Origin: an uncultured Thiohalocapsa sp.
GTDB taxonomy: Bacteria; Pseudomonadota; Gammaproteobacteria; Chromatiales; Chromatiaceae
Assembly (NCBI RefSeq): GCF_913063425.1
Contig: NZ_CAJXYK010000002.1
Coordinates: 124,001 to 188,000, forward strand
Direction: 5' to 3'
DNA: 64,000 nucleotides
Made by a program: the position numbers and the translations under genes. Positions 7,651-37,366 of the stretch are shown one piece after another (positions within the stretch are counted from its first letter, which is position 1; each line of letters opens with the position of its first letter). The notes under the pieces were generated by a model, which was not told the DNA's origin, searched no databases, and worked only from the letters and a program-made list of their open reading frames with translations.

Positions 7651-7784
7651 AGGGTTGATTCCGGTGTCGTCGCCCGGGCAGCGCGCGCCCGGCCATTGTC
7701 CTAGTTTCTTTGTGGTTTCCGGCGTACGCCAAAGCGGTGCTGCCAAGCGTCGGGCGCCCATAGATGGGCACCCGGCGCGGCGGC

Positions 7785-8507: not shown

Positions 8508-8563
8508 GAAACTACCTATGGCCTATATGCATGATGCGTCGCGTGGTTGGGTACAAAAGGCAG

Positions 8564-9107
8564 AAGTGCAGGAGTGCATGACGGAATCCAGACCACGGGC
8601 AAGGGCGACGCGCTATTTCTTGAGCTGCGGGTCAGCCGCTTCGATGCTGCTGCGCAGTTTCGCAATGATCCGGCTGACCTCATTGCCGTCGGCAATCAAC
8701 TGACTGAACGTTCGCTGATCGATATATCCCAGATCGAACGCCACATACACCTGGCTGCGAACTTCCGCCGCCGAGCCCCGCGCGATGGCAAGAAAACGCT
8801 TCAGCTCCGCGTTGCTGTAACGCTCAAAGCCCTCGGCGATGTTCGACATCACAGAAATGGCCGCCCGCCGAATCTGGTCCCTGAGGGCGAAATCCTTCGC
8901 CAGCGGCCCGTCGCTGCTGATCTGGTAGATCGCTTTCGTCAGAGCACGCGCCTTGCGCCAGCCGACGACATCCTCGAAGCGCTGAATTCCTCGCACAGTG
9001 TCTCCGCCCAGGCCAAGCTGCTTACAGGGCGCCGCAGCCATACGTCGCGCTTGCGGCACCCTGCACTGTCGCACTTCGCACTATTGCACTTCGCACTATC
9101 TGCACTC
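8564..9107. mobile_element. Putative four-helix-bundle (IVS-like) insertion in the soe operon
   Basis: The four-helix-bundle gene is bounded by related sequence in opposite orientation: 8564-8580 (AAGTGCAGGAGTGCATG) and 9061-9107, where CGCACTT/TTGCACT words recur. The reverse complement of the left end matches the first 17 bases of the right end at 13 positions. Such ends recall the stem-forming intervening sequences in which this family was first noticed. That it is a mobile unit is inference. Confidence 0.45.
8613..8996 (-). CDS. Four-helix-bundle protein (23S rRNA IVS-type family)
   Basis: This 127-residue protein shows the family hallmarks WRKARALTKAIYQIS, RDQIRRAAISVMSNIAEGFER and a region of E/A/L-rich helices. 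Members are encoded in intervening sequences of 23S rRNA genes and as scattered chromosomal genes, and are related to the Avd accessory protein of diversity-generating retroelements; the fold is known but the function is not. GTG at 8996 gives the usual family start, though the frame stays open to an ATG at 9074. Lying between soeA and soeB, it is foreign to the operon's function. Confidence 0.85.
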   Translation of the reverse strand: MRGIQRFEDVVGWRKARALTKAIYQISSDGPLAKDFALRDQIRRAAISVMSNIAEGFERYSNAELKRFLAIARGSAAEVRSQVYVAFDLGYIDQRTFSQLIADGNEVSRIIAKLRSSIEAADPQLKK

Positions 9108-9111
9108 GCAG

Positions 9112-12018: not shown

Positions 12019-12575
12019 GGTGATTTCCGGGGCTGGTGGGGTCTGGGGCGAGTCGCTCGGTACCGGCGCGCGGGTGATCCGGGAGCAGGCGGCCGCAGCG
12101 AGGTCAGCGCCAGGCTGCCGGCGGCACCAGGTCGCGTCCACGGGAGCGTGCCGCTCCGTCTAATGCTCGGCCGGGGCGCCGAAAAACCCTGCAAGGGAGA
12201 TCGCACCGCGGCCACTCAACGCGCTCAATATACAGAATCGGAACATTCTAATGTTCCGCGCGCAAGGTTAAGAGGCTCGCGCACGCATTCAAGGATGCGG
12301 ATCACGGGGTTTTTGCTCGCCGGCCTTGCCGGTTTCCCCATGACGATATGGCGCAAGCGCCCGGCGCTCAGACGCGCTCGGGATCGCAGCCGGCAGTCGT
12401 TGCCCGGGGAGCAGTTGACCGAGTTTCAGGGGGCACGCCCCGCAGCCGCCGGCCGGAGCGGCCCCGGTCGAGTGCGGTACAGGGTCCGGGACGCCGACTC
12501 AGGATGAGCCGACGGCGGCGTGGACGGTGTGGTGGGCGGGCGCCCGCGGGACATCCCGGGCCGAGGGCGGGGCCT
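12019..12575. other. Intergenic control region upstream of soeA
   Basis: No gene is recognised here. The region holds the palindrome at 12239-12258 and a candidate -10 (TATATT, minus strand, 12227-12232), which could drive soeA with a leader of about 200 bases. Nothing else is seen towards the cupin 3' end. Confidence 0.5.
12239..12258. promoter_or_regulatory. Palindromic operator upstream of soeA
   Basis: CGGAACATT and AATGTTCCG form perfect 9-base arms around a 2-base centre. The site covers the expected -35 region of a minus-strand promoter whose -10 would be TATATT at 12227-12232. The binding factor is unknown. Confidence 0.5.
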
Positions 12576-23449: not shown

Positions 23450-25240
23450 TCAGCGCAGGCGCAGCCGCACCGGGCGCAGGTGGTAGGCATGGCGGGTCTG
23501 GGTGTGGTCGAACACGGCCACCCAGAGCAGGGTGCCGTCGGTGATGGCGACGTCCCGGCTGGAGCCCGTGTCCAGGCGCCGGCTCAGCTCCAGGGACCAG
23601 CGCCCGTCCGCCCAATGGCCACGGGCGGCGATGTCGCCGCGGTCGCCTGTGAGCCGGCCGGTGGGCAGCACGCTCGGCAGCAGCGTGCCCACCGGCAGGG
23701 TGTCCGGGCCGTCGGCGTAGGGGCGGGTGTCGTTGAATTCGATCCAGGCCGGCTCCGGTGCCGTTGCCGGCGGCGCCGGTGGTGCGCCGCCGGCCGCCTC
23801 CGGCAGGGCCAGATCCCGGGGGTCCTTCGGCAGGCGCAGCGGCTGCGTCCGGCCCTCGCTGAAGAACTCCCAGTTCATCTCGTAGCCGCTGAAGGTGCCG
23901 GGCGGGTCCTTGCGGTAGCCGCCGGTGTAGCGCGGCAGCCAGGCGCCGCTGTCCGGGTCCCGGGTGCGCGGCGTCTGCGCCGGGGCGGGCAACGGCGGGC
24001 CGAAGAAATTGTCGTCCGCCTGATGCTCGGCGTCGTTGCGCACGGACTTCCAGTGCCAGACGTCGAGGATGCCGCCGTCGGTGGTGTAGTGCAGGCCGCG
24101 ACCGCCAGGCGCCTCGGGCTCGCCCCGCAGCGGCTGCGCACCCAGGTGCACCGAGGTCAGGGCCGCGAGCGGCCTGCCGGGCGGCGCCAGCATGAGGGCG
24201 AGCTTGTCCTCGTACCAGCGGTTCTCGTCGGCACTGCGGTAGGCGGTCTGCAGGATGCGCCAGCCCTGGGCTGTCTTGAGCAGCGGCACATGGGCGGTGC
24301 TGCGGGTGGGGTCGGTCCACTCGCAGAGCAGGTAGACACGCTCGCCGTCGTGGACGCCGCGCAGGGTCAGGATGCTCTCGCCGCCCGGCAGATTGGCGCC
24401 GTTGGCGAGTGCGATGCGCAGCGCGGGGGCCTGCGCCCAGGCGCGGTCGTCCACGCGGCCGTCCAGCACGGGCAACTCCACGGCCCGCGGCAGGGTCAGG
24501 TCCCGCACCAGCACGCGGTCCGCGACGACGGCGGCGACGATCAGACCCAGGCTCACCGCCGCCGCCCAGGCGCCGATGCGCAGGTGGGCCGGGCGCGGCA
24601 GCAGGATCGCGAGCAGGCGCCGCACACCGCCGCCGGCGAGCTGTAGACCGACATGCGCCGCGGCATAGCCCAGCAGGCCCCAGGCCGCCATCCGATGCAG
24701 CGCCTCCAGCAGCCGGCGCCCGCCGGGCGGCGCAGCACCAAGGTATTGCAGGGCACCGGTGCCGGCCGCCAACAGCAGCAGACCAAAGGCGAGCCAGTAC
24801 AGCACCAGGTCCAGCCGGCGCAGGCGGGCCGCGCGGTCGCCCGCTGCCCCCATCCGCGGCAGTCGCAGCAGCCGGCGGCCGAGACCGCTTCGCACCTGAT
24901 ACAGGGCATAGGCCAGCATGGCCGCCAGCACAAGGGCACCGGAGATGAGATGCCACAGCAGCGCCGCCCCCTGCGGCAGCACCGGGGCCAGTGCGGCGGA
25001 AACCAGGGCATCGGGGGCATCTGCGGCGATGCGCAGGCCGGTGGCGAGGCTCACCGCCAGGGCCAGCACCAGCAGCCAGTGGAGCAGCACCGTCGGCAGC
25101 GGCGCGCGGCTGAGCCGCTGTGTCGGTGAGCCTTGCGGCGGGGAGGGCTCGGTGGCGCCGACCTCCGCGCGGATGCGCTGAGGCCGGGACGGCTGCCGGC
25201 CCGCGCCGGTCGCAACGGCCGTCCGGGTTGCAGGGGACAT
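23450..25240 (-). CDS. Cytochrome b561 fused to ethylbenzene-dehydrogenase-like heme domain
   Basis: This 596-residue protein has an N-terminal cytochrome b561-type membrane domain (about residues 48-250; LLHWLLVLALAVSLATGLRI and a later histidine-bearing segment, ALHRMAAWGLLGYAAAHVGL). A C-terminal soluble domain (about 255-596) resembles the heme-binding gamma subunit of ethylbenzene dehydrogenase/DMSO reductase type II enzymes (LYLLCEWTDPTRS-like strand, NRWYEDKLALML, DVWHWKS). It may carry electrons between the quinone pool and a periplasmic partner. No molybdoenzyme catalytic subunit lies beside it, so its partner is unknown. Confidence 0.82.
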   Translation of the reverse strand: MSPATRTAVATGAGRQPSRPQRIRAEVGATEPSPPQGSPTQRLSRAPLPTVLLHWLLVLALAVSLATGLRIAADAPDALVSAALAPVLPQGAALLWHLISGALVLAAMLAYALYQVRSGLGRRLLRLPRMGAAGDRAARLRRLDLVLYWLAFGLLLLAAGTGALQYLGAAPPGGRRLLEALHRMAAWGLLGYAAAHVGLQLAGGGVRRLLAILLPRPAHLRIGAWAAAVSLGLIVAAVVADRVLVRDLTLPRAVELPVLDGRVDDRAWAQAPALRIALANGANLPGGESILTLRGVHDGERVYLLCEWTDPTRSTAHVPLLKTAQGWRILQTAYRSADENRWYEDKLALMLAPPGRPLAALTSVHLGAQPLRGEPEAPGGRGLHYTTDGGILDVWHWKSVRNDAEHQADDNFFGPPLPAPAQTPRTRDPDSGAWLPRYTGGYRKDPPGTFSGYEMNWEFFSEGRTQPLRLPKDPRDLALPEAAGGAPPAPPATAPEPAWIEFNDTRPYADGPDTLPVGTLLPSVLPTGRLTGDRGDIAARGHWADGRWSLELSRRLDTGSSRDVAITDGTLLWVAVFDHTQTRHAYHLRPVRLRLR

Positions 25241-25496: not shown

Positions 25497-25937
25497 TCAC
25501 CAGGACTTGTAGGGCAGGAACTTGCCGTTCAGTGTCACCACCACGCGGTCGCCTTTCGGGTCCTCCTGCTTGGCGACGTCCATGGAGAAGTCGATGGCGC
25601 TCATGATGCCGTCGCCGAACTGCTCGTGGATGACCTCCTTCAGGGTCTCGCCGTAGACGCCGACGATTTCGTAGAAGCGGTAGATCAGCGGGTCGGTGGG
25701 GATGGTCTGGTCCCAGACCTTTTTCGGGAACTCGGTGAGGGCGGCAGCCACGTCCGGGCCCAGGCCCAGGGCCTCGGTGCAGGTCTTGGCGTTGGCCTCG
25801 CTCAGGCTGTTCATGCCGAGGCAGGCGGAGCACAGGAACTCCGGCGCCAGACCGACGGCGCCCCCGAGCGCCTCCCAGGTCATGCCCTTGGCCTTCTTCG
25901 CGTCCAGGATGGCGGTCTTCATCTCGGTCTTGGTCAT
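25497..25937 (-). CDS. cynS: Cyanate hydratase (cyanase)
   Basis: This 146-residue protein matches cyanase in length. It has an N-terminal helix-turn-helix-like domain and a C-terminal catalytic domain with the triad at Arg87, Glu90 (YRFYEIVGVYG) and Ser113 (IMSAIDF), aligned to Arg96, Glu99 and Ser122 of the E. coli enzyme. It converts cyanate and bicarbonate to ammonia and CO2. ATG at 25937 gives the conserved start. A -24/-12 promoter (TGGCACCAGGCTTGCT, 25996-26011) lies 60 bases upstream, so expression is probably sigma-54 dependent. The ABC transporter operon at 26240 is divergent. Confidence 0.96.
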   Translation of the reverse strand: MTKTEMKTAILDAKKAKGMTWEALGGAVGLAPEFLCSACLGMNSLSEANAKTCTEALGLGPDVAAALTEFPKKVWDQTIPTDPLIYRFYEIVGVYGETLKEVIHEQFGDGIMSAIDFSMDVAKQEDPKGDRVVVTLNGKFLPYKSW

Positions 25938-25995
25938 GCGTCGGCACCTCGTCGTGCGGCTGAAGAAACTGGATGGGAGCAACCGGCAGAAGGCA

Positions 25996-26011
25996 AGCAA
26001 GCCTGGTGCCA
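25996..26011 (-). promoter_or_regulatory. Sigma-54 (-24/-12) promoter of cynS
   Basis: The minus strand reads TGGCACCAGGCTTGCT, which matches TGGCAC-N5-TTGC at every fixed base with exact GG-N10-GC spacing. It is placed about 60 bases before the cynS ATG. Confidence 0.75.
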
Positions 26012-26069
26012 AGGCACGCCGACGCGGATCGTTGCCGGCGTGAAGCTCGGAATCGAGATTGCCGACTGG

Positions 26070-26136
26070 AATTGTCAGGCATTGTCGACACTCGCGGCCG
26101 AGCACGACGCCGACGAATGTCGCCAAACCGGTGCGC
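26070..26136. promoter_or_regulatory. Candidate activator-binding region between cynS and cynD
   Basis: AATTGTC (26070-26076), CATTGTCGACA (26080-26090) and AAACCGGTGCGC (26125-26136) recur upstream of osmC at 33298-33304, 33266-33276 and 33277-33288. The region is centred between the two divergent -24/-12 promoters, as expected for an enhancer-type site. Confidence 0.6.
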
Positions 26137-26187
26137 TCGGTGCGCCACCCTGCGCCGTGACTGGGCAAACACGGCATCTGCAGGCCA

Positions 26188-26203
26188 TGGCACGGTCTCT
26201 GCA
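26188..26203 (+). promoter_or_regulatory. Sigma-54 (-24/-12) promoter of the cyn transporter operon
   Basis: TGGCACGGTCTCTGCA has the full TGGCACG -24 element and GG-N10-GC spacing (GG 26189-26190, GC 26201-26202). It lies 37 bases before the ATPase start. Confidence 0.72.
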
Positions 26204-26239
26204 CTGGCCTCCGGCAACCTTCACTGCCGGAACCATCGC

Positions 26240-27046
26240 ATGGCTGCCAGCGTCTCCGTCGATTTCATCACCCACACCTTCAAGGGCCAGAGCGCACCGA
26301 CGCTCAAGGACGTCGAGCTCAGCATTCGCCCTGGCGAGCAGGTGGCGCTGATCGGCCGCAGCGGCTGCGGCAAGTCCACGCTGCTGCACATGCTGGCGGG
26401 GCTGATGCTGCCGACGGAGGGCTGCGTGCACATCCGCGGCCACATGGTCACCAAGCCGAGCGCCAAATGGAACATGATGTTCCAGAAGCCGAGCCTGTAC
26501 CCCTGGATGTCGGTGCGGCAGAACGCGGAGCTGGGCCTGCTCTTCGCCGGGCGCCGCGATCCGGCGCGCATCGATGCGCTGCTGGATCTGGTGGGCCTCG
26601 CCGACAAGGCAGACGCCAATGTCCAAAGCCTCTCCGGCGGGCAGCAGCAGCGGGTGGCCCTGGCGCGCTCGCTCGCCACCTCCCCCGAGCTGCTGCTGCT
26701 GGATGAGCCCTTCTCGGCGCTGGACGCCTTCACCCGCGCCGCGCTCCAGGACGAGGTCTCCCGCATCGCCCGGCAGGAGAAGCTCACGCTGGTCATCGTC
26801 ACCCACGACATCGATGAGGCCGTGGCCATGGCGGACCGGGTGCTGATCATGGCGGCCAACCCCGGGCGCATCGTCGGCGAGATGGCCATCGACCTGCCGA
26901 CGCCCCGGGAGCGCGCCAGTGCCGAATACAGCCGCGCCCGCGAGCAGCTGATGACCACCTTTGACGGACTCGTCGGCGACGGCCGCAGCACAGCGGCGCC
27001 GAGCGCGGACACCCAGGACGCGGAGCCCCAGCGCGCCGCCGCCTGA
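26240..27046 (+). CDS. cynD: Cyanate-type ABC transporter, ATP-binding protein
   Basis: This 268-residue ABC ATPase has Walker A GRSGCGKST (residues 39-47), the signature LSGGQQQRVALARS, Walker B LLLLDEPFSALD and a VTHDIDEA switch. It belongs to the nitrate/taurine/cyanate (NrtD/TauB/CynD) group. Its place opposite cynS and ahead of a binding protein and permease supports cyanate import, although the ATPase alone cannot show substrate. ATG at 26240 follows a sigma-54 promoter at 26188-26203. Confidence 0.85.
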   Translation: MAASVSVDFITHTFKGQSAPTLKDVELSIRPGEQVALIGRSGCGKSTLLHMLAGLMLPTEGCVHIRGHMVTKPSAKWNMMFQKPSLYPWMSVRQNAELGLLFAGRRDPARIDALLDLVGLADKADANVQSLSGGQQQRVALARSLATSPELLLLDEPFSALDAFTRAALQDEVSRIARQEKLTLVIVTHDIDEAVAMADRVLIMAANPGRIVGEMAIDLPTPRERASAEYSRAREQLMTTFDGLVGDGRSTAAPSADTQDAEPQRAAA

Positions 27047-27176
27047 GCCGCCACAGCGCCGGCAACCGATCCCCTTCCCCGCCGAGCCGCCCCAGAAGCG
27101 GCCGGCGCCCACCACTGAGGCTGGCAACCGGATTTCCTCTCCACAGCCGACCATCGCAACCCAAGAGGCACCCTCC

Positions 27177-28412
27177 ATGAGCCAGCACGATGACGATCTG
27201 AATTACCTCTTCGAGCACGAGATGTCGCGCCGCGACTTCATGCTCGACCTGCTTGCCAAGGGCGGCCTCGCCGCCACCATGGCGAGCCTGCCGGGCCTGC
27301 TGAACGCCGCCGAGCCGCCGGAGGACGAGGTCGTGCGCATCGGCTACATCCCCATCACCGACGCCACCGCCCTGCTGGTGGCCCACGCCAACGGATATTT
27401 CGAAGAGGAAGGGCTGAAGGTGGAGAAGCCCACGCTGATCCGCGGCTGGTCGCCGCTGGTGGAAGGCTTCGCCGCCGGCAAGTTCAACCTGGTGCACCTG
27501 CTGAAGCCCATCCCCGTGTGGATGCGCTACAACAACGACTTCCCCGTCAAGATCATGTCCTGGGCGCACCTGAACGGCTCCGCCGTGGTGGCCGGCAAGC
27601 ACCTGGACGCCAAGGACTTCAGCGACCTCGCCGGCAAGCAGGTTGCGGTGCCCTACTGGTACAGCATGCACAACATCGTGCTGCAGATGGCGCTGCGCAA
27701 CGCCGGCCTGAAGCCGGTCATCAAGGACCAGACCGCGGAGCTGGCAGCGGACGAGGTCAACCTGATGATCATGCCGCCGCCGGACATGCCGCCGGCGCTG
27801 GCGTCCAAAAAGATCGACGCCTTCATCGTCGCCGAGCCCTTCAACGCCGCCGGCGAGCTGCTGGCGGGCGGCACCATGCTGCGCTTCACCGGCGACATCT
27901 GGAAGAACCACCCCTGCTGCGTGGTCTGCATGAACGAGCAGACCGTCGCCGCCAAGCCGGAGTGGACCCAGAAGGTCATGAACGCCGTGGTCAAGGCGCA
28001 GATCTACGCCCAGCAGAACAAGGGCGAGGTGGCGCACATGCTCTCCAAGGATGGCAAGAAGTACCTGCCCATGCCGGCCAAGGTGGTGGAGCGGGCCATG
28101 ACCTTCTACGGCCCAGACGACTACACGGACCCGAACGCCAACCGCCACGTCGCCGAGTGGCAGAACGGGCGCATCGACTTCCAGCCCTACCCCTACCCGA
28201 GCGCCACCAAGCTCATCGTCGAGGAAATGAACAAGACCCTGGTGGGCGGCGACACCACCTTCCTGAAGGATCTCGACCCCGACTTCGTGACGCAGGACCT
28301 GGTGAACTACGACCACGTCAAGGTGGCCATGGAGCAGTTCATGGACTGGTCCAAGGTGCCGGGCATCAACCCGGACGACCCCTACACGCGTGAAGAAGTG
28401 GTGGTGCTGTGA
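27177..28412 (+). CDS. cynA: Cyanate-type ABC transporter, substrate-binding protein
   Basis: This 411-residue protein carries a Tat-like start (SRRDFMLDLLAKGG at about residues 17-30) and a NrtA/TauA/SsuA-type binding fold (VRIGYIPITDATALLVAHANGYF). A region rich in Met-Pro (LMIMPPPDMPPALASKKIDAF) and the tail DWSKVPGINPDDPY follow. It would capture the anion in the periplasm. The 130-base gap to the ATPase gene is the only break in the operon. It overlaps the permease start by four bases (GTGA). Cyanate is inferred from cynS; nitrate or a sulfonate cannot be excluded. Confidence 0.85.
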   Translation: MSQHDDDLNYLFEHEMSRRDFMLDLLAKGGLAATMASLPGLLNAAEPPEDEVVRIGYIPITDATALLVAHANGYFEEEGLKVEKPTLIRGWSPLVEGFAAGKFNLVHLLKPIPVWMRYNNDFPVKIMSWAHLNGSAVVAGKHLDAKDFSDLAGKQVAVPYWYSMHNIVLQMALRNAGLKPVIKDQTAELAADEVNLMIMPPPDMPPALASKKIDAFIVAEPFNAAGELLAGGTMLRFTGDIWKNHPCCVVCMNEQTVAAKPEWTQKVMNAVVKAQIYAQQNKGEVAHMLSKDGKKYLPMPAKVVERAMTFYGPDDYTDPNANRHVAEWQNGRIDFQPYPYPSATKLIVEEMNKTLVGGDTTFLKDLDPDFVTQDLVNYDHVKVAMEQFMDWSKVPGINPDDPYTREEVVVL

Positions 28413-29410
28413 CGGCGGCCGAGGGCACCCTGCCGCTGACCGCGGAGCCGGCGCTCACCGGCGGCGAGCAGCGCCGCTCGGCCGGCGGCCGGCCGGCGAG
28501 GCCGGCGGCTGCCGACGCAGGCGCACCGGCACCGCCGGGCGGTGCCGGCGACGCGGGGCGCAGCGCCCCCGCACGCAGCGCCGTCATCGAGCGACCCGCG
28601 CGCCACTGGCACACCCGCACCTTCCGCTGGCCTGCGGTACGGGCCTTCCTGCTGTCCACGGTGGCCTATCCGGCCCTGGGCATCGCAGTGCTGCTGGCGC
28701 TCTGGTGGCTCGGCGGCTGGGCCATTGCAAGTAACGAGGACGTGTCCGCCTTCGCCGGCTTCGCGCCGGCCCCGGCCTTTGCGGCCCTCGGCGAGCTGGT
28801 CGCCTCCGGCGATGTGTGGGGCACCATTTACCCGAGCCTGTACCGCATCGGCATGGGCCTGCTCTGGGCCTTCGTCATCGGCGTGCCGGTGGGCGTGGCC
28901 ATCGGGCTGTCGTCGGCGCTGCGGGAGGTCACCCACGTGCCCTTTCAGTTCCTGCGCATGATCAGCCCCCTGGCCTGGATGCCCATTGCGGTGCTGGCCT
29001 TCGCCACCTGGGACGGCGCCATCGTCTTCCTGATCACCGTCGCCGCGGTCTGGCCCGTGCTCTTCTCCACCGCCCAGGGCGTGCGCCGCATCGACCCGCT
29101 GTGGTTCAAGGTGGCGCGCAACCTGGGCGCCGACGGCTGGCAGATGCTGCGCCGGGTGATCATGCCCGCCATCGGGCAGGACATCTTCGCGGGCTTGAGG
29201 CTCGCGGTGGGCGTCGCCTGGATCGTGCTCGTACCGGCGGAGTACCTGGGCGTCACCAGCGGCCTGGGCTACGCCATCAACGACGCCCGCGACACGCTGG
29301 AGTACGACACCCTGGCAGCCATCGTCGTGGTCATCGGCATCATCGGCTTCCTGCTGGATGGCCTCTGCGTCAGCCTCATCAAACGCTTCTCGTGGCGGCA
29401 GGCGGACTGA
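28409..29410 (+). CDS. cynB: Cyanate-type ABC transporter, permease
   Basis: This 333-residue permease of the BPD/TauC/CynB type starts at a GTG that overlaps the previous stop. An alanine/glycine-rich cytoplasmic N-terminus of about 75 residues precedes six membrane segments. The EAA loop for ATPase docking is visible as ARNLGADGWQMLRRVIMPA. It completes the transporter with the ATPase at 26240 and the binding protein at 27177. The long disordered N-terminus is unusual for the family. Confidence 0.87.
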   Translation: MTAAEGTLPLTAEPALTGGEQRRSAGGRPARPAAADAGAPAPPGGAGDAGRSAPARSAVIERPARHWHTRTFRWPAVRAFLLSTVAYPALGIAVLLALWWLGGWAIASNEDVSAFAGFAPAPAFAALGELVASGDVWGTIYPSLYRIGMGLLWAFVIGVPVGVAIGLSSALREVTHVPFQFLRMISPLAWMPIAVLAFATWDGAIVFLITVAAVWPVLFSTAQGVRRIDPLWFKVARNLGADGWQMLRRVIMPAIGQDIFAGLRLAVGVAWIVLVPAEYLGVTSGLGYAINDARDTLEYDTLAAIVVVIGIIGFLLDGLCVSLIKRFSWRQAD

Positions 29411-29673
29411 GACCGGCGGCAATGCCGGCGGCGTAAGGCCTGCGGCCGATGGCCGCATCCAAAGTCCGGGGCCTGGGCTCGCCGGGTCGTCGGCGGCATA
29501 CCGCCGCGTCGGCCGCTGCCTGCGGCGGTATCAGGACGGCTGCGGCCACCGTGGACTTGCCGCGCCGGCTGGGGCCGAGAGCCAGCATCCCGAGCCCGTG
29601 GTACACCACCACCGCCGCAGACAGGCCGGGGAGCCCCCCGAGGGAGCAGGCGTGCCGCAGCGCGCAGCATCCG

Positions 29674-30108
29674 TTACAGCAGGGCCCAGGCCTCGGCGGC
29701 GACGCGACCGGTGTCCTCGTGCGTCAGGTCCTTGACCAGCTCGCCCTTCACCGCGCGCTTGAGCGGCGCGTCCATCACCTCGCGCAGCAGGCCCATGAAC
29801 TGCGGCGGCGCCATGATGCAGAGCTGCTCGAAGCGATGGGCATGGAGCCCCTCGCGCAACAGCGCCACGACTTCGCGGGCGAAGCGCATGGCCTCTTCGT
29901 GCTTGGGGTCGGTGCTCGGCTCCATCGCATGGCGTTGCTCGCCGCGGGAATCGAAGGCTCGGCCCGGCCGGTCGCTCTCGATCTCCTCCCCCTTGAGGCG
30001 CGCCTCGGGGTGGACCAGGTCCTTGAGCTCCGCGAGGGGCTGCCCGCGGCCCTCCAGCGCGTAGAGCCGCGCGCGGGTGGCATTGCTCACGATCACCCAG
30101 GTCTTCAT
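29674..30108 (-). CDS. Host-attachment-type protein (PF10116-like)
   Basis: This 144-residue soluble protein begins MKTWVIVSNATRARLYAL and has DLVHPEARLKGEEIESDRPGR and APPQFMGLLREVMD. These fit the family named from an Agrobacterium host-attachment protein, which is widespread and of unclear role, and is distantly like release-factor eRF1 domain proteins. ATG at 30108 is preceded by GAGAGGT. It stands alone on the minus strand and converges with the cyn operon. Confidence 0.82.
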   Translation of the reverse strand: MKTWVIVSNATRARLYALEGRGQPLAELKDLVHPEARLKGEEIESDRPGRAFDSRGEQRHAMEPSTDPKHEEAMRFAREVVALLREGLHAHRFEQLCIMAPPQFMGLLREVMDAPLKRAVKGELVKDLTHEDTGRVAAEAWALL

Positions 30109-30426
30109 CGTCGATACCTCTCTGGTCAGTCCGGCCTTGCGGCCCGCCGCGGCGATCACCGTGCGCGGACCACACCCTACCTTCAAGGTAGACGCCGAAG
30201 CGGACTGCTCACAAGGCATCACCGGGCGCGGCGCCGATCGGTGCAGTTACCTCCACCGAAGGCAGGTCCACCGGAGCGCCCGGAGACAGCCGGCTATGGT
30301 GGCGATTGCCCCGCGCTGTGCGACCGTGCGACGACGCTGTCAAGATCAGGTTACCGTCCCCGAATTTTGGCGCTTTCTTTTTCTGCACAGGGCTGCACAG
30401 GTTGGCGTCGCCCTATTTCGAGGCTG
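30109..30426. other. Intergenic stretch with one GGGGACGGTAA repeat
   Basis: No gene is seen here. A TTACCGTCCCCGAATTTT element lies at 30351-30368 near the exoD-like 3' end. Confidence 0.5.
30351..30368 (-). repeat. GGGGACGGTAA-type short repeat, copy 3
   Basis: The text TTACCGTCCCCGAATTTT is a variant of the repeats at 17366 and 18737 and of the cluster at 31211-31418. Confidence 0.6.
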
Positions 30427-31101
30427 TCAGCCGAAGCCGAGGACGGATTTGACGGCGTCCTTGAAGAGGTCGATGAAGGCGGGGCCGAACACGGCAACCC
30501 CCACCACCAGCAGGGTGATCCAGGCGATGCCGATGGCGATCCCGGCGAGCACCAGCAGGCCGTCGCGGGTAATGAGACCGATGGAGGCCATGGCGATGCC
30601 GATGCCGGGCAGGGTATTGGTGGCCGGGAATGGAATCAGGATACTGGCAATGAACACCACGAACACGGCGCCCACGATGCGCTCCGCCGTGGGCCCCGAC
30701 AGCAGCAGCAAGCGCGGCCGGGCGAGGGTCTCGATCCAGCCGAAATACTTGCGCGCGCCGGCGGCCATCTGCACCAGACCGGACTTACTGAGGCGACGCT
30801 CGCCGAAGCGTTGCGGCATCCAGGGCTCCGGGCGCCCCATGGCCATCTGCACAGCGATGGCGATCATCGGCAGGGAGACGATCTGGGGAATGCCGTAGAG
30901 CAGCGGGATGCACACCGGAATGGCCAGCGCAAACAGCATCAGGCCGAAGGCGCGCTCACCCAGGGCCTGGGTGAAATCGTGCAGGGTCATACCGTCGGCG
31001 GGAGCCTCATCGGCGATGACTTCCAGCGCGGCGATCAGGCCGCGGCGGGGCGCCGCCTCCTCCGCCTCGTCGGCGGCGGCGTCAACGGAGTGCTCGTTCA
31101 T
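30427..31101 (-). CDS. ExoD-family exopolysaccharide synthesis protein
   Basis: This 224-residue membrane protein has the ExoD pattern. A soluble N-terminus (LIAALEVIADEAPADGMTLHDFTQALGERAFG) leads into LPVCIPLLYGIPQIVSLPM-like membrane helices and a motif of the RPEPWMPQRF type. Two further helix pairs end in VFGPAFIDLF. ExoD affects polysaccharide production and alkali/envelope tolerance, but its biochemistry is unknown. It sits between two stretches rich in short repeats, with no operon partner. Confidence 0.86.
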   Translation of the reverse strand: MNEHSVDAAADEAEEAAPRRGLIAALEVIADEAPADGMTLHDFTQALGERAFGLMLFALAIPVCIPLLYGIPQIVSLPMIAIAVQMAMGRPEPWMPQRFGERRLSKSGLVQMAAGARKYFGWIETLARPRLLLLSGPTAERIVGAVFVVFIASILIPFPATNTLPGIGIAMASIGLITRDGLLVLAGIAIGIAWITLLVVGVAVFGPAFIDLFKDAVKSVLGFG

Positions 31102-31210
31102 GGCAGGTGTCCTGTAGTCAACAGCGCAGGGCCGAAAGCAGCGCGGATGGTACAGCGCTCCGCCCCACCGCGCGCGCCCTCAAAACACGGAGACGAATTT
31201 GGGAACAAGA

Positions 31211-31418
31211 TACGGGGACGGTAACCTTAACTTGAGAGATAGACATGATGCCAAAGAAACGGGAAGAAACGGGGACGGTAAACTTAACTCAAACAGCACT
31301 GGCCTTGCGGAGCTCGATGTTGAACGACGGCACACCAGTCCGCTGAATTTGATATACCGTCCCCTTTTTATGTGTCCCCAATTTTTGTGCTGAATTGAAT
31401 ATACCGTCCCCGTTTCTT
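31211..31418. repeat. Cluster of GGGGACGGTA inverted repeats (MITE-like)
   Basis: Four copies lie in about 210 bases: 31211-31232 and 31266-31289 as GGGGACGGTAA...CTTAACT, and 31345-31370 and 31392-31418 as the reverse (GAATT...ATATACCGTCCCC). The pair 31271-31289 and 31345-31364 faces inward around some 55 bases and resembles a miniature element with terminal inverted repeats. The rest of 31102-31525 holds only the sigma-54 site of the next gene. Confidence 0.65.
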
Positions 31419-31472
31419 ATCCCCGTTTCTTCGTGTGGCGGACCGGCGGCAACTGCGTTGCCCCGGGCCGAT

Positions 31473-31488
31473 TGGCCCGTTGCTTGCT
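31473..31488 (+). promoter_or_regulatory. Sigma-54 (-24/-12) promoter of the NifA-like gene
   Basis: TGGCCCGTTGCTTGCT has exact GG-N10-GC spacing (GG 31474-31475, GC 31486-31487) and one mismatch to TGGCAC-N5-TTGC. It ends 38 bases before the start codon and suggests autoregulation. Confidence 0.6.
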
Positions 31489-31525
31489 TGCGCAGTGACC
31501 ACTTTGTCGTCAATGCCGAGCATCC

Positions 31526-33220
31526 ATGTCCACGTCCGACACCGCCATTACCCTGGAATCCGAGCTGCTGGTGATCCAGCAGGCGGCGCGCATCATCAGC
31601 CGCAGCGATGACCCGGAGGCGGCAATCCAGGGCATCCTGCGGCTGCTCTCCCAGCTGCTGGGCCTGAACCGCGGCCGGGTCCTGCTGGTGGACCCAAGCA
31701 CCGCCACCCTCGCCATCCGCTATGCCTATGGCCTGACGGACGAGGAGCGCGCCCGCGGGCGCTATGCCTTGGGCGAGGGCATCACCGGCCGTGTGTTCCA
31801 GACCGGTCAGATGGAGGTGGTGCAGGACATCGACGCCGAGCCGAGCTACCTGACCCGCGCCGTCGCCCGCGGCGTGCTGCCGCAGGAGCCGGTGGCCTTC
31901 CTCGCACTGCCCATCCAGCAGCACGAGCAGACCATCGGCGTGCTGGCGGTGCACCGGCTGCGTCAGCGCGAGCGGCCCTTTCAGCGCGACCTTGCACTGT
32001 TGCAGGTCATCGCGACACTCGTCGCACAGGTGCTGCGCGTGAATGATCTGGTGGCCGAGCGCACCGCCCAGCTGCTGTCTGAGAACCGGCTGCTCAAGAA
32101 CCGGCTGGAGAGCCGCGGCGCCTCCTACGGCATCATCGGCCAGAGCCCCGCGCTGCACCAGGCCATCAACCAGACGCTGCAGGTGGCGGCCACCAAGACC
32201 ACGGTGCTGCTGCTCGGCGAGTCCGGCACCGGCAAGGAGCGCTTCGCGCGCATGCAGCATGTGGCGAGCAAGCGCGCCGACGGGCCCTTCGTGAGCGTCA
32301 ACTGCGCGGCCATCCCGGCGAACCTGCTGGAGTCCGAGCTGTTCGGCCACGAGAAGGGCGCCTTCACCGGTGCGCAGGCGGTCAAGAAGGGGCGCATGGA
32401 GCTCGCCGACGGCGGCACGCTGTTCCTGGACGAGATCGGCGACCTGGACCTTGAGCTTCAGGCCAAGCTGCTGCGGGTGCTGGAGTACAAAGTCGTGCAG
32501 CGTGTGGGCGGCACCCGCGATATCCCGGTGGACGTGCGCATCGTCGCCGCCACCCACCAGAACCTCCAGGAGGCCGTGAACGACGGCCGCTTCCGCCTGG
32601 ACCTGTTCTACCGGCTGAATGTGTTCCCGATCCGCCTGCCGCCGCTGCGCGCGCGCGCCGGCGACGTGCCCATCCTCGCCCGGCATTTTCTCAACGCCGC
32701 CAACCAGGAGTACGGCCGCAACCAGGTGTTCGGCCCCGGCGCCCTGGAGCTGCTGGAGCGCTTCGGTTGGCCCGGCAACATCCGCCAGCTGGAGAACCTG
32801 GTGAAGCGCGCCGTGCTCATGAGCACCGAATCCGTCATCCGCCGTGACCTGGTGCAGGAGATCCTCGTCGAGGAAGAGGGCATCCGCCAGCCGGGCGCCG
32901 CCGGCGCGGGCACGGAGCCGGGCGGGCTGTCCATGGCGGCCCCGGCCGGCGCGGGCGCATCGCGCGCCCCGGCGGACCCCGTGCCGCTGCACCACAGCGA
33001 GCCGATGACGGCGCCGGGCGCCGGCGTGCCCGGCAACCCCTTCGACAGCGCCGAGCCGGGGCTGCGGCCCTATGCGCGGGTGCGCCACGACGAGCGCGAC
33101 CACATCGAGCAGGCCCTGCGCCGCCACCACGGCAACAAGACCCGCGCGGCGCTGAGCCTGGGCCTCACGCCTCGCCAGCTGCGCTACCGCATCGTCAAGC
33201 TCGGCATCGCCACGGAGTGA
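31526..33220 (+). CDS. NifA-like sigma-54-dependent transcriptional activator
   Basis: This 564-residue regulator has an N-terminal GAF domain (about 20-170), an AAA+ domain (about 200-430) with Walker A GESGTGKE, the sigma-54 contact loop GAFTGA and a Walker-B region FLDEIGDL, and a C-terminal Fis-type helix-turn-helix ([20 protein letters not shown]). This is the NifA/NorR-type layout. The NifA inter-domain cysteine pair is not apparent. A stretch of about 80 Ala/Gly/Pro-rich residues links the AAA+ and HTH domains. It probably drives the -24/-12 promoters at 25996, 26188 and 33359 and its own. No nif genes are in view, so the nifA name is not given. Confidence 0.9.
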
Positions 33221-33265
33221 GCGGCCTGAAGCCAAGGTGGACGCCGGCGCCCGCAACCTCGCCGA

Positions 33266-33325
33266 CATTGTCGACAAAACCGGTGCGCGCCCTGTCGAAT
33301 TGTCGACCTCTCTGGTGTGACAATT
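33266..33325. promoter_or_regulatory. Candidate upstream activator sites of osmC
   Basis: The region holds the palindrome TTGTCGACAA (33268-33277), AAACCGGTGCGC (33277-33288), TGTCGAAT (33293-33300), TTGTCGAC (33300-33307) and an AATTGTC/GACAATT inverted pair (33298-33304 and 33319-33325). It lies 35-95 bases upstream of the -24/-12 element. Three of these words recur between cynS and cynD. Confidence 0.6.
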
Positions 33326-33358
33326 TCCAAGCGACTGTTATTCTTCGTCTTTCATAGC

Positions 33359-33374
33359 AGGCACGGTCATTGCT
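33359..33374 (+). promoter_or_regulatory. Sigma-54 (-24/-12) promoter of osmC
   Basis: AGGCACGGTCATTGCT matches the GGCACG-N4-TTGCT consensus with exact GG-N10-GC spacing (GG 33360-33361, GC 33372-33373). It lies 63 bases before the osmC ATG. Confidence 0.75.
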
Positions 33375-33436
33375 TTCACGGGGTTGAGCTGCAACCAGGT
33401 CCAACGTGACCACCCACAACCCACGGAGTCAGCCCC

Positions 33437-33985
33437 ATGAGCGCCACCGCCGAGACCGTTTCCGCAACCATCGACTACCTGCGCCCCATCGACGCCGAGG
33501 GCCTCACCAAGCTCGGCGAGAAGGGCAAGGCCAACCCCACCAACGTCGTCACCCTGAAGGCCAAGACGGTCTGCGAGGGCCAGTTCCGCAATATGACCTA
33601 TGTGCGCGACCTGGCGCCCATGCTCATCGACGAGCCGCCGCACCTGCTTGGAGAAGACAACGCCCCCAACCCGTCCGAGGCGGCGCTCGCCACCCTCGGC
33701 GCCTGCCTGGCCGTCGGCGTGCACGCCAACGCCACCGCCCGCGGCGTCAAGCTCTCCAAGCTGGAGCTGCACCTGGAGGGCGACATCAACGTCACCGCCG
33801 TCTGGGGCACGGGCGACCTGAACCCGGCCAAGCCGCTGGGCTTCACCGACATCCGCGTCACCATCGACGCCGAGGGTGATGCGCCGAAAGAGGTCATCGA
33901 CGAGATCATCGCCCACTCCAACACCTGGTCGCCGGTGGCCAACACCATGCGCCGCCCGGTGAACGTCAGCGTCGATCCGGCCTGA
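33437..33985 (+). CDS. OsmC/Ohr-family protein
   Basis: This 182-residue protein shows the OsmC fold signature GEDNAPNPSEAALATLGACLAVGVHANATARG with the peroxidatic-type cysteine in GACLA. The first catalytic cysteine may be the one in KTVCEGQFR. Members reduce organic hydroperoxides or handle other small electrophilic or sulfur compounds. GGAGTC precedes the ATG. It lies behind a -24/-12 promoter and next to the NifA-like activator. Its link to cyanate genes through shared control suggests a role under nitrogen or cyanide/cyanate stress. Confidence 0.88.
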   Translation: MSATAETVSATIDYLRPIDAEGLTKLGEKGKANPTNVVTLKAKTVCEGQFRNMTYVRDLAPMLIDEPPHLLGEDNAPNPSEAALATLGACLAVGVHANATARGVKLSKLELHLEGDINVTAVWGTGDLNPAKPLGFTDIRVTIDAEGDAPKEVIDEIIAHSNTWSPVANTMRRPVNVSVDPA

Positions 33986-34192: not shown

Positions 34193-35356
34193 ATGAGCGC
34201 CGCCGTCCAGATGCCCGAGCCCACGGCCGCAGGCCGAATCATCCCCGCTGTGCCCACCGCCGATGAGCTGGTGGCGGCGACGCAGGACGTGGTGGAGCGC
34301 GAGCTCGCCCCGCTCACCGCCCGCATCGACCGGGAAGGTCTGTACCCCAAGGCCGTCATGCACAGCCTCGGCGCCGCCGGCGCCTTCCGCGCCCACCTGC
34401 CCGATGCCCGCCCGGACGGCTGCCACGACTTCGGCGCCGCCATCCGCGCCATGGCCGCCGTCTCCCACGAGTGCCTGTCCACCGGCTTCGCCACCTGGTG
34501 CCAGGACACCTGCGCCTGGTACCTGCAGATGGGCGAAACCGAGGCCCGCGACCTGTGGCTGGAGCCGCTGGCGTCCGGCCGGGTGCTCGGCGGCACCGGC
34601 ATGTCCAACACCATGAAGGCGTTCTCCGGCATCGAGGACCTGCGCCTCACCGGCGAGCGGGTGGACGGCGGCTACATCGTCAACGGCAGCCTGCCCTGGG
34701 TGTCCAACCTGGGCGCGGACCATGTCTTCGGCACGCTCTTTACGTTGAGCGGCGACACCGCCCGCACCGTCATGGCGCTGGTGGACTGCAGCGCGCCGGG
34801 GTTCACACTGCGCCAGTCGGCGCACTTCGTGGCCCTGGAGGGCACCCGCACCTTCGCCTGCCTGTTCGATAACGTCTTCATTCCGGACGCCCACATCATC
34901 GACCACGACGGCGCCGCCTTTCTGCGCCGTGCCCGCGCCGGGCTGGTGCTGCTCCAGTTCGGCATGGGCGCCGGCAACATCCAGGGCTGCATCGATGTCT
35001 GCCGCGGCGTGGAGCACCAGCTCGGGCATGTGAATCAGTTTCTGGACGACCGCCCGGACGAGCTCCAGGAGGAGCTCGACGACATCGTCGAGGCGGTGCT
35101 GACCCTGGCCGAGACGCCCCACGAGGCGTCCGAGGACTTCTTCCGCGAGATCCTGCAACTGCGGCTCGCCGCCGGGGAGCTGGCCCTGCGCGCCTCCCAA
35201 TCCGCCATGCTGCACACGGGTGCCAAGGGCTACCTCAGCAGCGCACCCGCCCAGCGCAAGCTGCGCGAGTCCTACTTCGTCGCCATCGTCACGCCGGCCA
35301 CCAAGCACCTGCGTAAGGAGTTGGCGCGGATGGATTCGGAAGGGGCGGGCAGCTAG
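34193..35356 (+). CDS. Acyl-CoA dehydrogenase-like flavoprotein
   Basis: This 387-residue protein has the acyl-CoA dehydrogenase/flavin monooxygenase fold: an alpha N-terminal domain with HECLSTGFATWCQDTC, a beta middle domain (GGTGMSNTMKAFSGIEDLRL, YIVNGSLPWVSNLGADHVFG) and a helical C-terminal domain. The catalytic glutamate usual for acyl-CoA dehydrogenases is not obvious. A flavin-dependent oxygenase such as the SfnB/DszC group is therefore possible. It follows osmC after a tandem-repeat spacer and may share the sigma-54 promoter. Confidence 0.78.
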   Translation: MSAAVQMPEPTAAGRIIPAVPTADELVAATQDVVERELAPLTARIDREGLYPKAVMHSLGAAGAFRAHLPDARPDGCHDFGAAIRAMAAVSHECLSTGFATWCQDTCAWYLQMGETEARDLWLEPLASGRVLGGTGMSNTMKAFSGIEDLRLTGERVDGGYIVNGSLPWVSNLGADHVFGTLFTLSGDTARTVMALVDCSAPGFTLRQSAHFVALEGTRTFACLFDNVFIPDAHIIDHDGAAFLRRARAGLVLLQFGMGAGNIQGCIDVCRGVEHQLGHVNQFLDDRPDELQEELDDIVEAVLTLAETPHEASEDFFREILQLRLAAGELALRASQSAMLHTGAKGYLSSAPAQRKLRESYFVAIVTPATKHLRKELARMDSEGAGS

Positions 35357-35503: not shown

Positions 35504-35884
35504 ATGCACACCTTCTCCACCCCACTTTCCGCCGACGAAGCCATCGACAAGCTCAAGACCGGTGTCGAGGGCGTCGGTCTGCGTGTCGTCGCCCACATCA
35601 ACGGCCAGGCCAACGCCAAGCTGATCGGTAAAGACGTCCCGGCGGATCAGATCCTGGAGATCTTCCGGCCGGACTTCGCCATCCGCGTCTGGGACGCCTG
35701 CAAGCCCGCGGGCCACGACATCCCGCTGCGCATCCACGTCTACGAGGACCAGGGCACCACCAAGGTCGCCTGCCGCATGCCGAGCACGGCGTTCGCGGCC
35801 TTCGACAGCCCGGCCCTTGCCGAGATCGGCACCGAGCTGGACGCCCTCTTCGAGCAGATCCTGGCGCAGGTGCCGCGCGCCTGA
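35504..35884 (+). CDS. DUF302-family protein
   Basis: This 126-residue protein fits the DUF302 pattern: it begins TFSTPLSADEAIDKLKTGVEGVGLRVVAHINGQA, has the central DQILEIFRPDFAIRVWDACKPAG and the closing MPSTAFAAF. The family has a small alpha/beta fold, and some members bind heme or handle sulfur and metals, but no role is established. ATG at 35504 is chosen for the conserved start. It sits between the flavoprotein gene and the rubredoxin fusion on the same strand. Confidence 0.85.
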   Translation: MHTFSTPLSADEAIDKLKTGVEGVGLRVVAHINGQANAKLIGKDVPADQILEIFRPDFAIRVWDACKPAGHDIPLRIHVYEDQGTTKVACRMPSTAFAAFDSPALAEIGTELDALFEQILAQVPRA

Positions 35885-35962: not shown

Positions 35963-37366
35963 ATGACCGAGACCCCCTACCGCAAGTGGATCTGTGACGC
36001 CTGCGGCTACATCTACGACGAGGCCAAGGGGGACCCGGACGGGGGCCTGCCGCCCGGCACCCGCTACGATGATATGCCCGACGACTGGCAGTGCCCCCTG
36101 TGCGGGCTGCGCAAGGCGGACCTGCGCCTGCTGCCGGACGCACCGCCGCCTTCCCCGGTGTCGGACGTGCCGAGGCGACCCACAGCCGGTCCTGGGCTGC
36201 GCCGCCGGCACTTCGGCAGCGCGGAGCATCTGGTCATCGTCGGCGCCGGCGTCGCCGGCTGGTCCGTGGCCGAGGCCGCCCGCCGCCGCGACCCGGCCCT
36301 GCCGATCCTGCTGGTCACCGCCTGCGAGGGCGCCGTCTATGCCAAGCCGTCGCTGTCCACGGCGCTGGCCCACGGCCGGGACACGCAAAGCCTGGTGGAC
36401 GCCACCGCCGGGCAGCGCGCAGCCGAGCTCGGCATCGAGGTGCTGACCCGCACCCGGGTGCTCAAGATCGACACCACGCGGCGGCGGCTCATCACCGCCC
36501 GCGGCGGCATCAGCTACGGCCGGCTCGTGCTTGCCCTGGGCGCCCGCCAGCGGCGCCTGGACATGGCCGGTGACGCCGCCGATGCCGTGCTGCGGGTCAA
36601 CGATCTGGCGAGCTACCGCGGCCTGCGCGAGCGCCTGGACGCCGGCCCCAGGCAGGTGACCCTGGTGGGCGCAGGGCTCATCGGCTGCGAGCTGGCGGAC
36701 GACCTCACCGCCGGCGGCCACGCCGTGACCCTGGTGGACCCGGCGGATCGGCCCCTCGCGGCCCTGCTGCCGGCGGATGTGGGCGGCGCGCTGCGCGAGC
36801 GCCTGGCGGCGAAGGGCGTGCAATGGCGGCTCGGCAGCACGCTCGCGGCGCTGGACCATGCCGGCGAGCGGCTGCGGGCGACCCTCGCCGACGGCACGCG
36901 CTTCGACACGGACATCGTCCTCTCCGCCGCCGGCCTGCTGCCCATCACGGAGCCCGCCGCCCGCGCCGGTCTCGCGGTGCAGCGCGGCATCGTCGCCGAC
37001 CGCCGGCTGCGCACGTCGGTGCCGGGCGTCTACGCCCTGGGCGACTGCGCCGAAGTGGAGGGGCGCTGCTTCAGCTACATCGAGCCCATCCGCCGGCAGG
37101 CCGAGGCCATCGCCGCGGACCTCGCGGGCGAGGATGCCCCCTTCCTGCCGCTGCCGCCGCTGGTGCGGGTGAAGACGCCGACGCTGCCCATCAGCGTCTG
37201 CCACGGCCATGTGGCCGCCGGCGGCGCAGCCACCGCGTGGCAGCGCATCGCCGACGACCACGAGGGCATGCGCCTGGAGCAGCCGGATGCGACGGGCCCC
37301 GCCTTCATCCTCACCGGCAGCTATGCCCAGCTCGGCGGCGAGCTGTACCGCGCGCACCTGGGCTGA
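35963..37366 (+). CDS. Rubredoxin fused to NAD(P)H-dependent FAD oxidoreductase
   Basis: This 467-residue fusion has an N-terminal rubredoxin (residues 1-54; [23 protein letters not shown] and CPLCG, four iron-binding cysteines). A rubredoxin-reductase-like FAD/NAD(P) module follows: FAD site [19 protein letters not shown] from about residue 91, NAD site [17 protein letters not shown] near 232, and [12 protein letters not shown] near 354. Electrons would flow from NAD(P)H via FAD to the rubredoxin and on to an oxygen/NO/peroxide reductase or oxygenase. It may serve the adjacent OsmC or flavoprotein. A spacer of C-rich repeats precedes it. Confidence 0.9.

Follow-up and report, generated by a model that had tools for sequence, protein, structure and literature searches.

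In Pseudomonas pseudoalcaligenes CECT5344, the Fis-type sigma-54 regulator CynF is described as essential for the expression of cynABDS, with a putative sigma-54 promoter ahead of cynA (PMC6627978), and a 2025 survey places cyanate lyase among the sigma-54 controlled genes of alpha- and gammaproteobacteria (PMC12316311). Thiocyanate is known to be broken down by a copper dehydrogenase and by a hydrolase (PMC5328954; PMC5778177). Here we analyze a locus within a 64,000-nucleotide stretch of contig NZ_CAJXYK010000002.1 of an uncultured Thiohalocapsa sp. (the window), in which the cyanase gene cynS, genes for an ATP-binding cassette (ABC) importer, a GAF-type sigma-54 activator and an osmC-flavoprotein-DUF302-rubredoxin reductase operon very probably form one sigma-54 regulon governed by the locally encoded activator, judging from their upstream sequences and those of relatives. 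With the CynF-cynABDS regulon the locus shares a Fis-family sigma-54 activator, an ABC importer, a cyanase and a sigma-54 promoter before structural genes (PMC6627978). Unlike there, its activator carries a GAF domain, whereas the CynF-like protein of the same genome carries a PAS domain and belongs, with others of its kind, to a clade apart; moreover, the main text of PMC6627978 mentions neither OsmC nor acyl-CoA nor rubredoxin. Judging from gene order, the CynF-like proteins compared here are putative orthologues of the CynF described in that paper. The locus also resembles the thiocyanate dehydrogenase pathway of Thioalkalivibrio, which converts thiocyanate to cyanate and sulfur and whose dehydrogenase gene has a Fis-family sigma-54 regulator and genes of an ABC transporter in its vicinity (PMC5328954; PMC5744179), but that dehydrogenase is a copper protein using cytochrome c, whereas a flavoprotein, OsmC and a rubredoxin reductase are proposed here. 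In the nit1C cluster with NitA, a Fis-family sigma-54 regulator likewise stands beside genes for the use of cyano compounds, although nit1C uses nitrilase chemistry (PMC11049912). Finally, the best NCBIfam match of the activator is NifA (TIGR01817), nearly over its whole length, but identity with NifA was set aside because the score of 477 bits lies below the curated cut-off of 528.85.

The gene set recurs beyond the window. In a class-wide sample, cynS, the ABC transporter, the GAF-type activator, osmC, the flavoprotein, the rubredoxin reductase and in some cases DUF302 are linked in eight families, and the same genes are also linked on a Marinobacter plasmid. Using the activator as query at an E-value of 1e-150 and counting the own genome in each sample, matches were found in 9/210 genomes of the family (5/61 genera), in 10/369 genomes class-wide (8 families) and in 1/398 genomes phylum-wide, namely the own genome only, a threshold that would miss relatives as distant as Caballeronia, Acetobacter and Enterovirga. 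OsmC is linked to the activator in eight of the nine family genomes (the exception is G230, locus L107) and in all ten class-wide ones. The gene order varies: cynS is divergent from osmC in L113-L115, osmC is divergent from the transporter in L116, the osmC operon is inverted in L117, all genes lie on one strand with cynS last on the Marinobacter plasmid, and in Acetobacter and Enterovirga the module forms one run together with cynS and CynABD-type genes. That the linkage survives such rearrangement argues for a shared function. An activator-independent search of the 369 class-wide genomes (E-value 1e-25) found OsmC in 15 and cynS in 48 of them; cynS is present in 13 of the 15 OsmC genomes (hypergeometric P = 5e-11, with the own genome included and no correction for kinship) and lies within approximately 12 kb of osmC on the same contig in 12, while in G392 it is on a separate contig and in G074 and G531 no cynS was found at this E-value. 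The reverse does not hold, as 35/48 cynS genomes are without this OsmC at the same E-value. The module is thus mostly accompanied by a cyanase and not vice versa, which fits a route ending in cyanate. The window cynS, a cyanase by its score of 170.4 bits for the TIGR00673 equivalog (cut-off 113.3), is the only cynS found in its own genome (G000) at E 1e-25. Extra neighbours common to 13 loci were searched for and nothing general was found, several genes being common only to the close relatives L113 and L115.

The sequence-only reading had placed four -24/-12 elements in front of cynS, the transporter operon, the activator gene and osmC. Rescanning with the consensus pattern TGGCACN5TTGCW, against which mismatches were counted, returned all four with 0, 1, 1 and 1 mismatches, respectively, each at the start of its gene and with GG-N10-GC spacing, and they recur in relatives. 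The window holds five sites with 0-1 mismatch, so that these four make up most of them. With up to two mismatches, 28 matches are found in the window versus 33 expected, and with up to one mismatch 145 are found in the genome versus 94 for a reversed control pattern. Single sigma-54 matches are therefore weak evidence, and it is position and conservation that carry the weight.

The gap between the divergent cynS and transporter promoters and the region upstream of osmC had been claimed to share several words, and here the outcome is divided. The palindrome TTGTCGACAA, exact at 33268 and with one letter different at 26082, holds and is conserved in relatives. AAACCGGTGCGC occurs exactly twice in the window; it was dropped as part of an activator site and is probably incidental, because the nearest relative (L087) does not retain it. 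The exact 10-mer TTGTCGACAA occurs at four places in the whole 5.9 Mb genome, and the other three were set aside as regulon members, as they have no GG/GC element with fewer than three mismatches within approximately 300 bases and are apparently intragenic. A composite search for TGTCGACA-N(70,100)-GGCAY-N6-TGC gave exactly three matches in the 5.9 Mb genome, the promoters of cynS, the transporter and osmC, and none for the reversed control. Since the search was not blind, its pattern and spacing having been chosen with the sites in view, the relatives are the independent part of the evidence. Over 23 genomes the composite pattern matches in 12, the reversed control in none of the 23, and 17 of the 22 matches lie at the module. 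The promoter of the activator gene is built differently, with no palindrome upstream and a near-match just downstream of its -12 element. The coordinates of all features are collected in Table 1.

Table 1. Genes, sigma-54 elements and candidate activator sites of the locus (window coordinates).
Feature	Position	Strand	Basis
cynS, cyanase	25497..25937	-	TIGR00673 above cut-off
cynS sigma-54 -24/-12 element TGGCACCAGGCTTGCT	25996..26011	-	0 mismatches
Palindromic candidate activator site TTGTCGACAC between divergent cynS and transporter promoters	26082..26091	.	Sequence match
Weaker second candidate site ATGTCGCCAA	26117..26126	.	2 mismatches; kept in L087
Transporter operon sigma-54 element TGGCACGGTCTCTGCA	26188..26203	+	1 mismatch
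ABC transporter ATPase	26240..27046	+	PF00005
ABC transporter substrate-binding protein, NrtA/NMT1 type	27177..28412	+	~28% identical to contig 32 CynA-type protein
ABC transporter permease	28409..29410	+	PF00528
Activator gene sigma-54 element TGGCCCGTTGCTTGCT	31473..31488	+	1 mismatch
Activator-site-like TTGTCGTCAA over expected transcription start of activator gene	31504..31513	.	Near-match
GAF-AAA+-Fis enhancer-binding protein, proposed regulator	31526..33220	+	GAF, sigma-54 AAA+ and Fis-type helix-turn-helix
Candidate activator site TTGTCGACAA upstream of osmC	33268..33277	.	Exact
Second, imperfect candidate activator site upstream of osmC	33300..33309	.	2 mismatches
osmC operon sigma-54 element AGGCACGGTCATTGCT	33359..33374	+	1 mismatch
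OsmC-family protein, one invariant cysteine (C90)	33437..33985	+	Family match, alignment
Acyl-CoA-dehydrogenase-fold flavoprotein, likely oxygenase or oxidase	34193..35356	+	Family match, fold
DUF302 protein	35504..35884	+	PF03625
Rubredoxin fused to NAD(P)H-dependent rubredoxin reductase	35963..37366	+	PF00301, PF07992 and PF18113

Conservation of the -24/-12 elements and of the CATTGTCGACA word upstream of the corresponding genes is found in related genomes, where their absence would have spoken against the regulon. In the following counts the window is included, an element has at most two mismatches, and the palindrome is TGTC(C/G)GACA with the middle letter optional; transporter rows whose best ATPase match is below 44% identity are excluded, as is L089, which lacked sufficient length. 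Upstream of osmC, a sigma-54 element is found in 21/29 loci (in 20 of them with at most one mismatch), and 17 loci have both element and palindrome. All 21 elements fall among the 23 loci with an activator in the same stretch (21/23; palindrome 17/23), while none of the six loci without an activator has an element or palindrome directly ahead of osmC (Fisher 6e-5 for the element, kinship ignored); in one of these six, L124, a sigma-54 element and TGTCGACA precede a rhodanese gene that leads the osmC operon. The transporter is preceded by an element in 13/18 loci and by element and palindrome in 8/18, and for cynS the figures are 9/20 and 4/20, the cynS element having no mismatch in L087, L090 and L091 and one in L108, L110, L112 and L117. 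Upstream of the activator gene an element is found in 14/24 loci, and TGTC(C/G)GACA starts 24-26 bases before the activator start codon in L107, L108, L110, L111 and L112; as this five-locus site sits over the transcription start, the activator gene may be autoregulated. The sites also recur in Enterovirga, Marinobacter and Caballeronia. When the regions upstream of the four genes were shuffled by dinucleotides, ≤0.1% of the copies contained an element with at most one mismatch and ≤0.9% the palindrome, elements with two mismatches having no separate count. As an internal control, no sigma-54 element was found upstream of the flavoprotein (28 loci) or reductase (23 loci) genes, and the palindrome occurs in 2/28 flavoprotein upstream regions. 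The claim of one regulon thus finds support in the upstream sites of relatives, the genome-wide composite search and the conserved gene neighbourhood.

The activator itself is an enhancer-binding protein as had been read from the window: PF00158, PF02954, a GAF domain and the GAFTGA loop are all present, that is, an AAA+ sigma-54 domain and a Fis helix-turn-helix, the activator of L117 reading GAFSGA. The genome contains 19 PF00158 matches, 18 of them strong, and other activators therefore exist outside the window. The activator alignment comprises 20 of the 23 activators, and the tree 45 activators, with 16 of 80 activator loci from named genomes as outgroup and without L122, whose frame ends early. 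In this tree, a single clade (support 0.94) unites 19 of the 23 module-labelled activators, and the remaining four (L007, L120, L123 and L133) cluster with the one encoded at the nitrile-hydratase plasmid locus L121. A separate clade (support 1.0) comprises five CynF-like proteins and excludes the window activator, which was for this reason not assigned to CynF, the genome having its own CynF-like protein on contig 32 (C32). The activator at L122:4088-5688 looks interrupted, as its frame ends after 369 amino acids and the remainder matches in another frame. On the Klebsiella plasmid from wastewater that carries L121, the related activator (43%) has nitrile hydratase genes, ABC importers and a carbon-nitrogen hydrolase as its neighbours, and TGTC(C/G)GACA was not found in the parts of this locus read. 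Ahead of the window activator promoter (31210-31420) the short word ACCGTCCCC or its complement GGGGACGGT is repeated, and similar words stand at the same place in L087, both as judged by eye.

OsmC/Ohr peroxidases use a peroxidatic and a resolving cysteine. In the OsmC protein of the module, C90 is invariant in all 21 aligned sequences (of 24 OsmC proteins found), and an invariant serine, S165, stands at the position of the second cysteine of the Ohr chain 6mjn, so that it was not placed among these two-cysteine peroxidases. The flavoprotein is predicted with confidence to adopt an acyl-CoA-dehydrogenase fold (predicted local distance difference test score 91.6); its match to the human short-chain enzyme has a template-modelling score of 0.82 at 20% identity, and its closest solved folds, among the 50 matches listed, are all dehydrogenases. 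Acyl-CoA dehydrogenases carry their catalytic glutamate in the IYEGT region. The end of the flavoprotein that corresponds to this region reads IVTP in 18/20 aligned sequences and IVSP and VLTP in the others (20 of 22 sequences, L112 being cut by a contig end and L114 left out), and the profile alignment to a solved enzyme stops just before it. Judging from this end, the flavoprotein would more likely be an oxygenase or oxidase than an acyl-CoA dehydrogenase. The DUF302 gene is found in 13 loci, window included.

The importer, which had been read as the cyn transporter, probably differs from classical CynABD, an identification that was abandoned for its divergence and for a separate CynABD-type locus in the same genome. 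The binding protein is approximately 28% identical to CynABD-type proteins in relatives as well, and among solved structures it comes nearest to an unnamed ABC binding protein and to NrtA, which binds nitrate. The second cyanate-type locus (L137, C32:30000-49500) encodes a CynF-like activator, CynABD-type genes, CobW and a rhodanese; its activator is a PAS-type sigma-54 protein that shares 61% identity with the CynF-like protein of L109, its CynABD-type genes are 58-63% identical to those of L113, an exact sigma-54 element lies at C32:34686-34701, and the rhodanese gene follows 2 kb beyond the CobW protein gene. In G050, a second cynS is found at the locus corresponding to this one. Since a CynABD-type transporter and a CynF-like activator are encoded elsewhere in the genome, the uptake of cyanate may be covered already, and the window importer may carry something other than cyanate.

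A link to sulfur comes from the two-domain rhodanese, whose L113 copy and alphaproteobacterial plasmid copies share approximately 62% identity. With a query taken from one of the 23 genomes, this rhodanese is found in 10/23 genomes with activator or OsmC compared with 0/89 others, the latter being the genomes without an OsmC match from a 94-genome class draw (P = 2e-8, kinship ignored). In five of the ten it lies within the stretch compared around the module: after cynS in L108, between permease and activator in L112, beside the reductase in L113 and L114, and ahead of osmC in L124. In G000, G008, G003 and G050 it stands beside the CynABD-CobW locus, and in G400 approximately 25 kb from osmC; it is also present in Enterovirga L007 and on the plasmids L134 and L135. 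The L108 rhodanese has its own sigma-54 element, and the bases read ahead of the L112 rhodanese hold neither sigma-54 element nor palindrome. In Caballeronia (L120:16774-17475), a metallo-beta-lactamase-fold gene directly follows cynS, its best NCBIfam match being a sulfur transferase/dioxygenase below cut-off.

Taken together, these genes suggest the following scheme. The activator encoded at 31526-33220 would bind the palindrome TTGTCGACAA approximately 70-100 bases upstream of the promoters and drive the sigma-54 promoters of cynS, of the NrtA-like ABC importer and of the osmC-flavoprotein-DUF302-rubredoxin reductase operon, and it would also control its own gene via the site over the transcription start. 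The importer would take up a small cyano anion, which the flavoprotein, with electrons passed from the rubredoxin reductase, and the single-cysteine OsmC would oxidise to cyanate and sulfane sulfur; cyanase would convert cyanate to ammonia and CO2, and a rhodanese-type sulfurtransferase, encoded on another contig here and within the cluster in several relatives, would remove the sulfur. The gene set, the sites with their conservation and the co-occurrence are observed; binding and activation by the activator and the flow of electrons are what we infer from this arrangement, and the substrate and the chemistry assigned to each enzyme are hypothetical. That the genes form a catabolic module ending in cyanate appears likely. 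A route yielding cyanate and sulfane sulfur points to thiocyanate, our tentatively preferred substrate, which is suggested by the accompanying genes only. One regulon combined with a catabolic route from a cyano anion, most likely thiocyanate, is as a whole just on the probable side of an even call. Stated in its fullest form, as a third route of thiocyanate breakdown beside copper dehydrogenase and hydrolase, in which importer, flavin oxygenase, NADH-rubredoxin reductase, OsmC and rhodanese turn thiocyanate into cyanate and a persulfide, cyanase releases the nitrogen and a single sigma-54 activator governs the whole, the proposal is conceivable but somewhat doubtful.

Several observations weigh against this scheme. 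L118 and L133 have a linked activator but no sigma-54 element ahead of osmC; five composite matches lie away from the module (one in G003, three in G050, one in G392); and the module accompanies just one, L007, of the 80 best, more distant relatives of the activator in named genomes. Several loci are without DUF302, and four of the five plasmid loci from the flavoprotein search have importer, OsmC and flavoprotein without cynS in the stretch read (three of six records were opened in one plasmid search and five of 28 in the flavoprotein search). The rhodanese is missing from 13/23 module genomes at E 1e-40, and the 320 bases ahead of the C32 rhodanese of the window genome yielded neither a sigma-54 element nor a palindrome. 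Finally, in the stretches read, L007, L113-L115, L120, L123, L124 and L133 have only CynABD-type transporter genes alongside the osmC module, which weakens the argument for a separate substrate of the importer.

This last pairing also speaks for an alternative in which the same regulon serves cyanate stress, the osmC-flavoprotein-rubredoxin genes guarding against modified thiols and peroxides and the importer being a second cyanate transporter. OsmC proteins are generally an oxidative-stress family, which suits such a role, but the OsmC of the module is without the second cysteine of Ohr-type peroxidases; the published CynF regulon does respond to cyanate (PMC6627978), yet the 35/48 cynS genomes without this OsmC indicate that cyanate is used independently of it, and the four plasmid loci have importer, OsmC and flavoprotein with no cynS nearby, leaving this alternative unlikely. 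To a similar degree we consider it improbable that the regulon draws its cyanate from cyanide, with the flavoprotein as a cyanide monooxygenase and the rhodanese detoxifying leftover cyanide to thiocyanate. A flavoprotein supplied by an NADH-rubredoxin reductase would suit a monooxygenase, but hydrogen cyanide diffuses through membranes and an ABC importer with a binding protein would be unneeded; a cyanide monooxygenase followed by cyanase has already been described, and rhodanese is known as a cyanide enzyme (PMC5778177). Less probable still is an organic sulfur-nitrogen compound, such as an isothiocyanate or organic thiocyanate, in place of the inorganic anion. Such a substrate is hinted at by a glutathione-transferase-like gene near the module in L113 and L114 and by a gene annotated as 2-hydroxychromene-2-carboxylate isomerase in L135, but tblastn found these genes in no other locus compared, and the solved relatives of the binding protein suit small anions.

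Further genes were noted in and around these loci. On the alphaproteobacterial plasmids L132, L134, L135 and L136, the importer, OsmC and flavoprotein genes are accompanied by TetR-type regulators, with no cynS in the stretch read. Between transporter and activator, the window (29674-31101) holds one gene of the Host_attach/baeRF family 12 and another for which NCBIfam gave no match, both found only in the same genus among the loci compared. Elsewhere in the window (6670-12141 and 23450-25240) lie genes for a molybdopterin oxidoreductase of 1009 amino acids, a DmsC-like anchor and a protein in which a domain of the ethylbenzene-dehydrogenase type is linked to cytochrome b561.

The coupling of cyanate metabolism to these redox genes had been put forward as new. 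Sigma-54 control of cyanate genes was already known through CynF and is not part of that novelty; for the coupling to the osmC module, no paper was found in a search mostly without subscription papers, so that it may be in print elsewhere. The module probably allows the cell to obtain nitrogen from thiocyanate or a comparable cyano compound. The analysis ties OsmC, the acyl-CoA-dehydrogenase-fold flavoprotein, DUF302 and the rubredoxin reductase to one regulator and offers a testable role for these four proteins, whose names in family libraries reflect no more than a fold or domain. To our knowledge, the step from thiocyanate or cyanide to cyanate is poorly assigned to genes in heterotrophs. 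If the substrate is indeed thiocyanate or cyanide, the module would provide candidate genes for this biochemically described step, and it might find use in cleaning mine and coke effluents.

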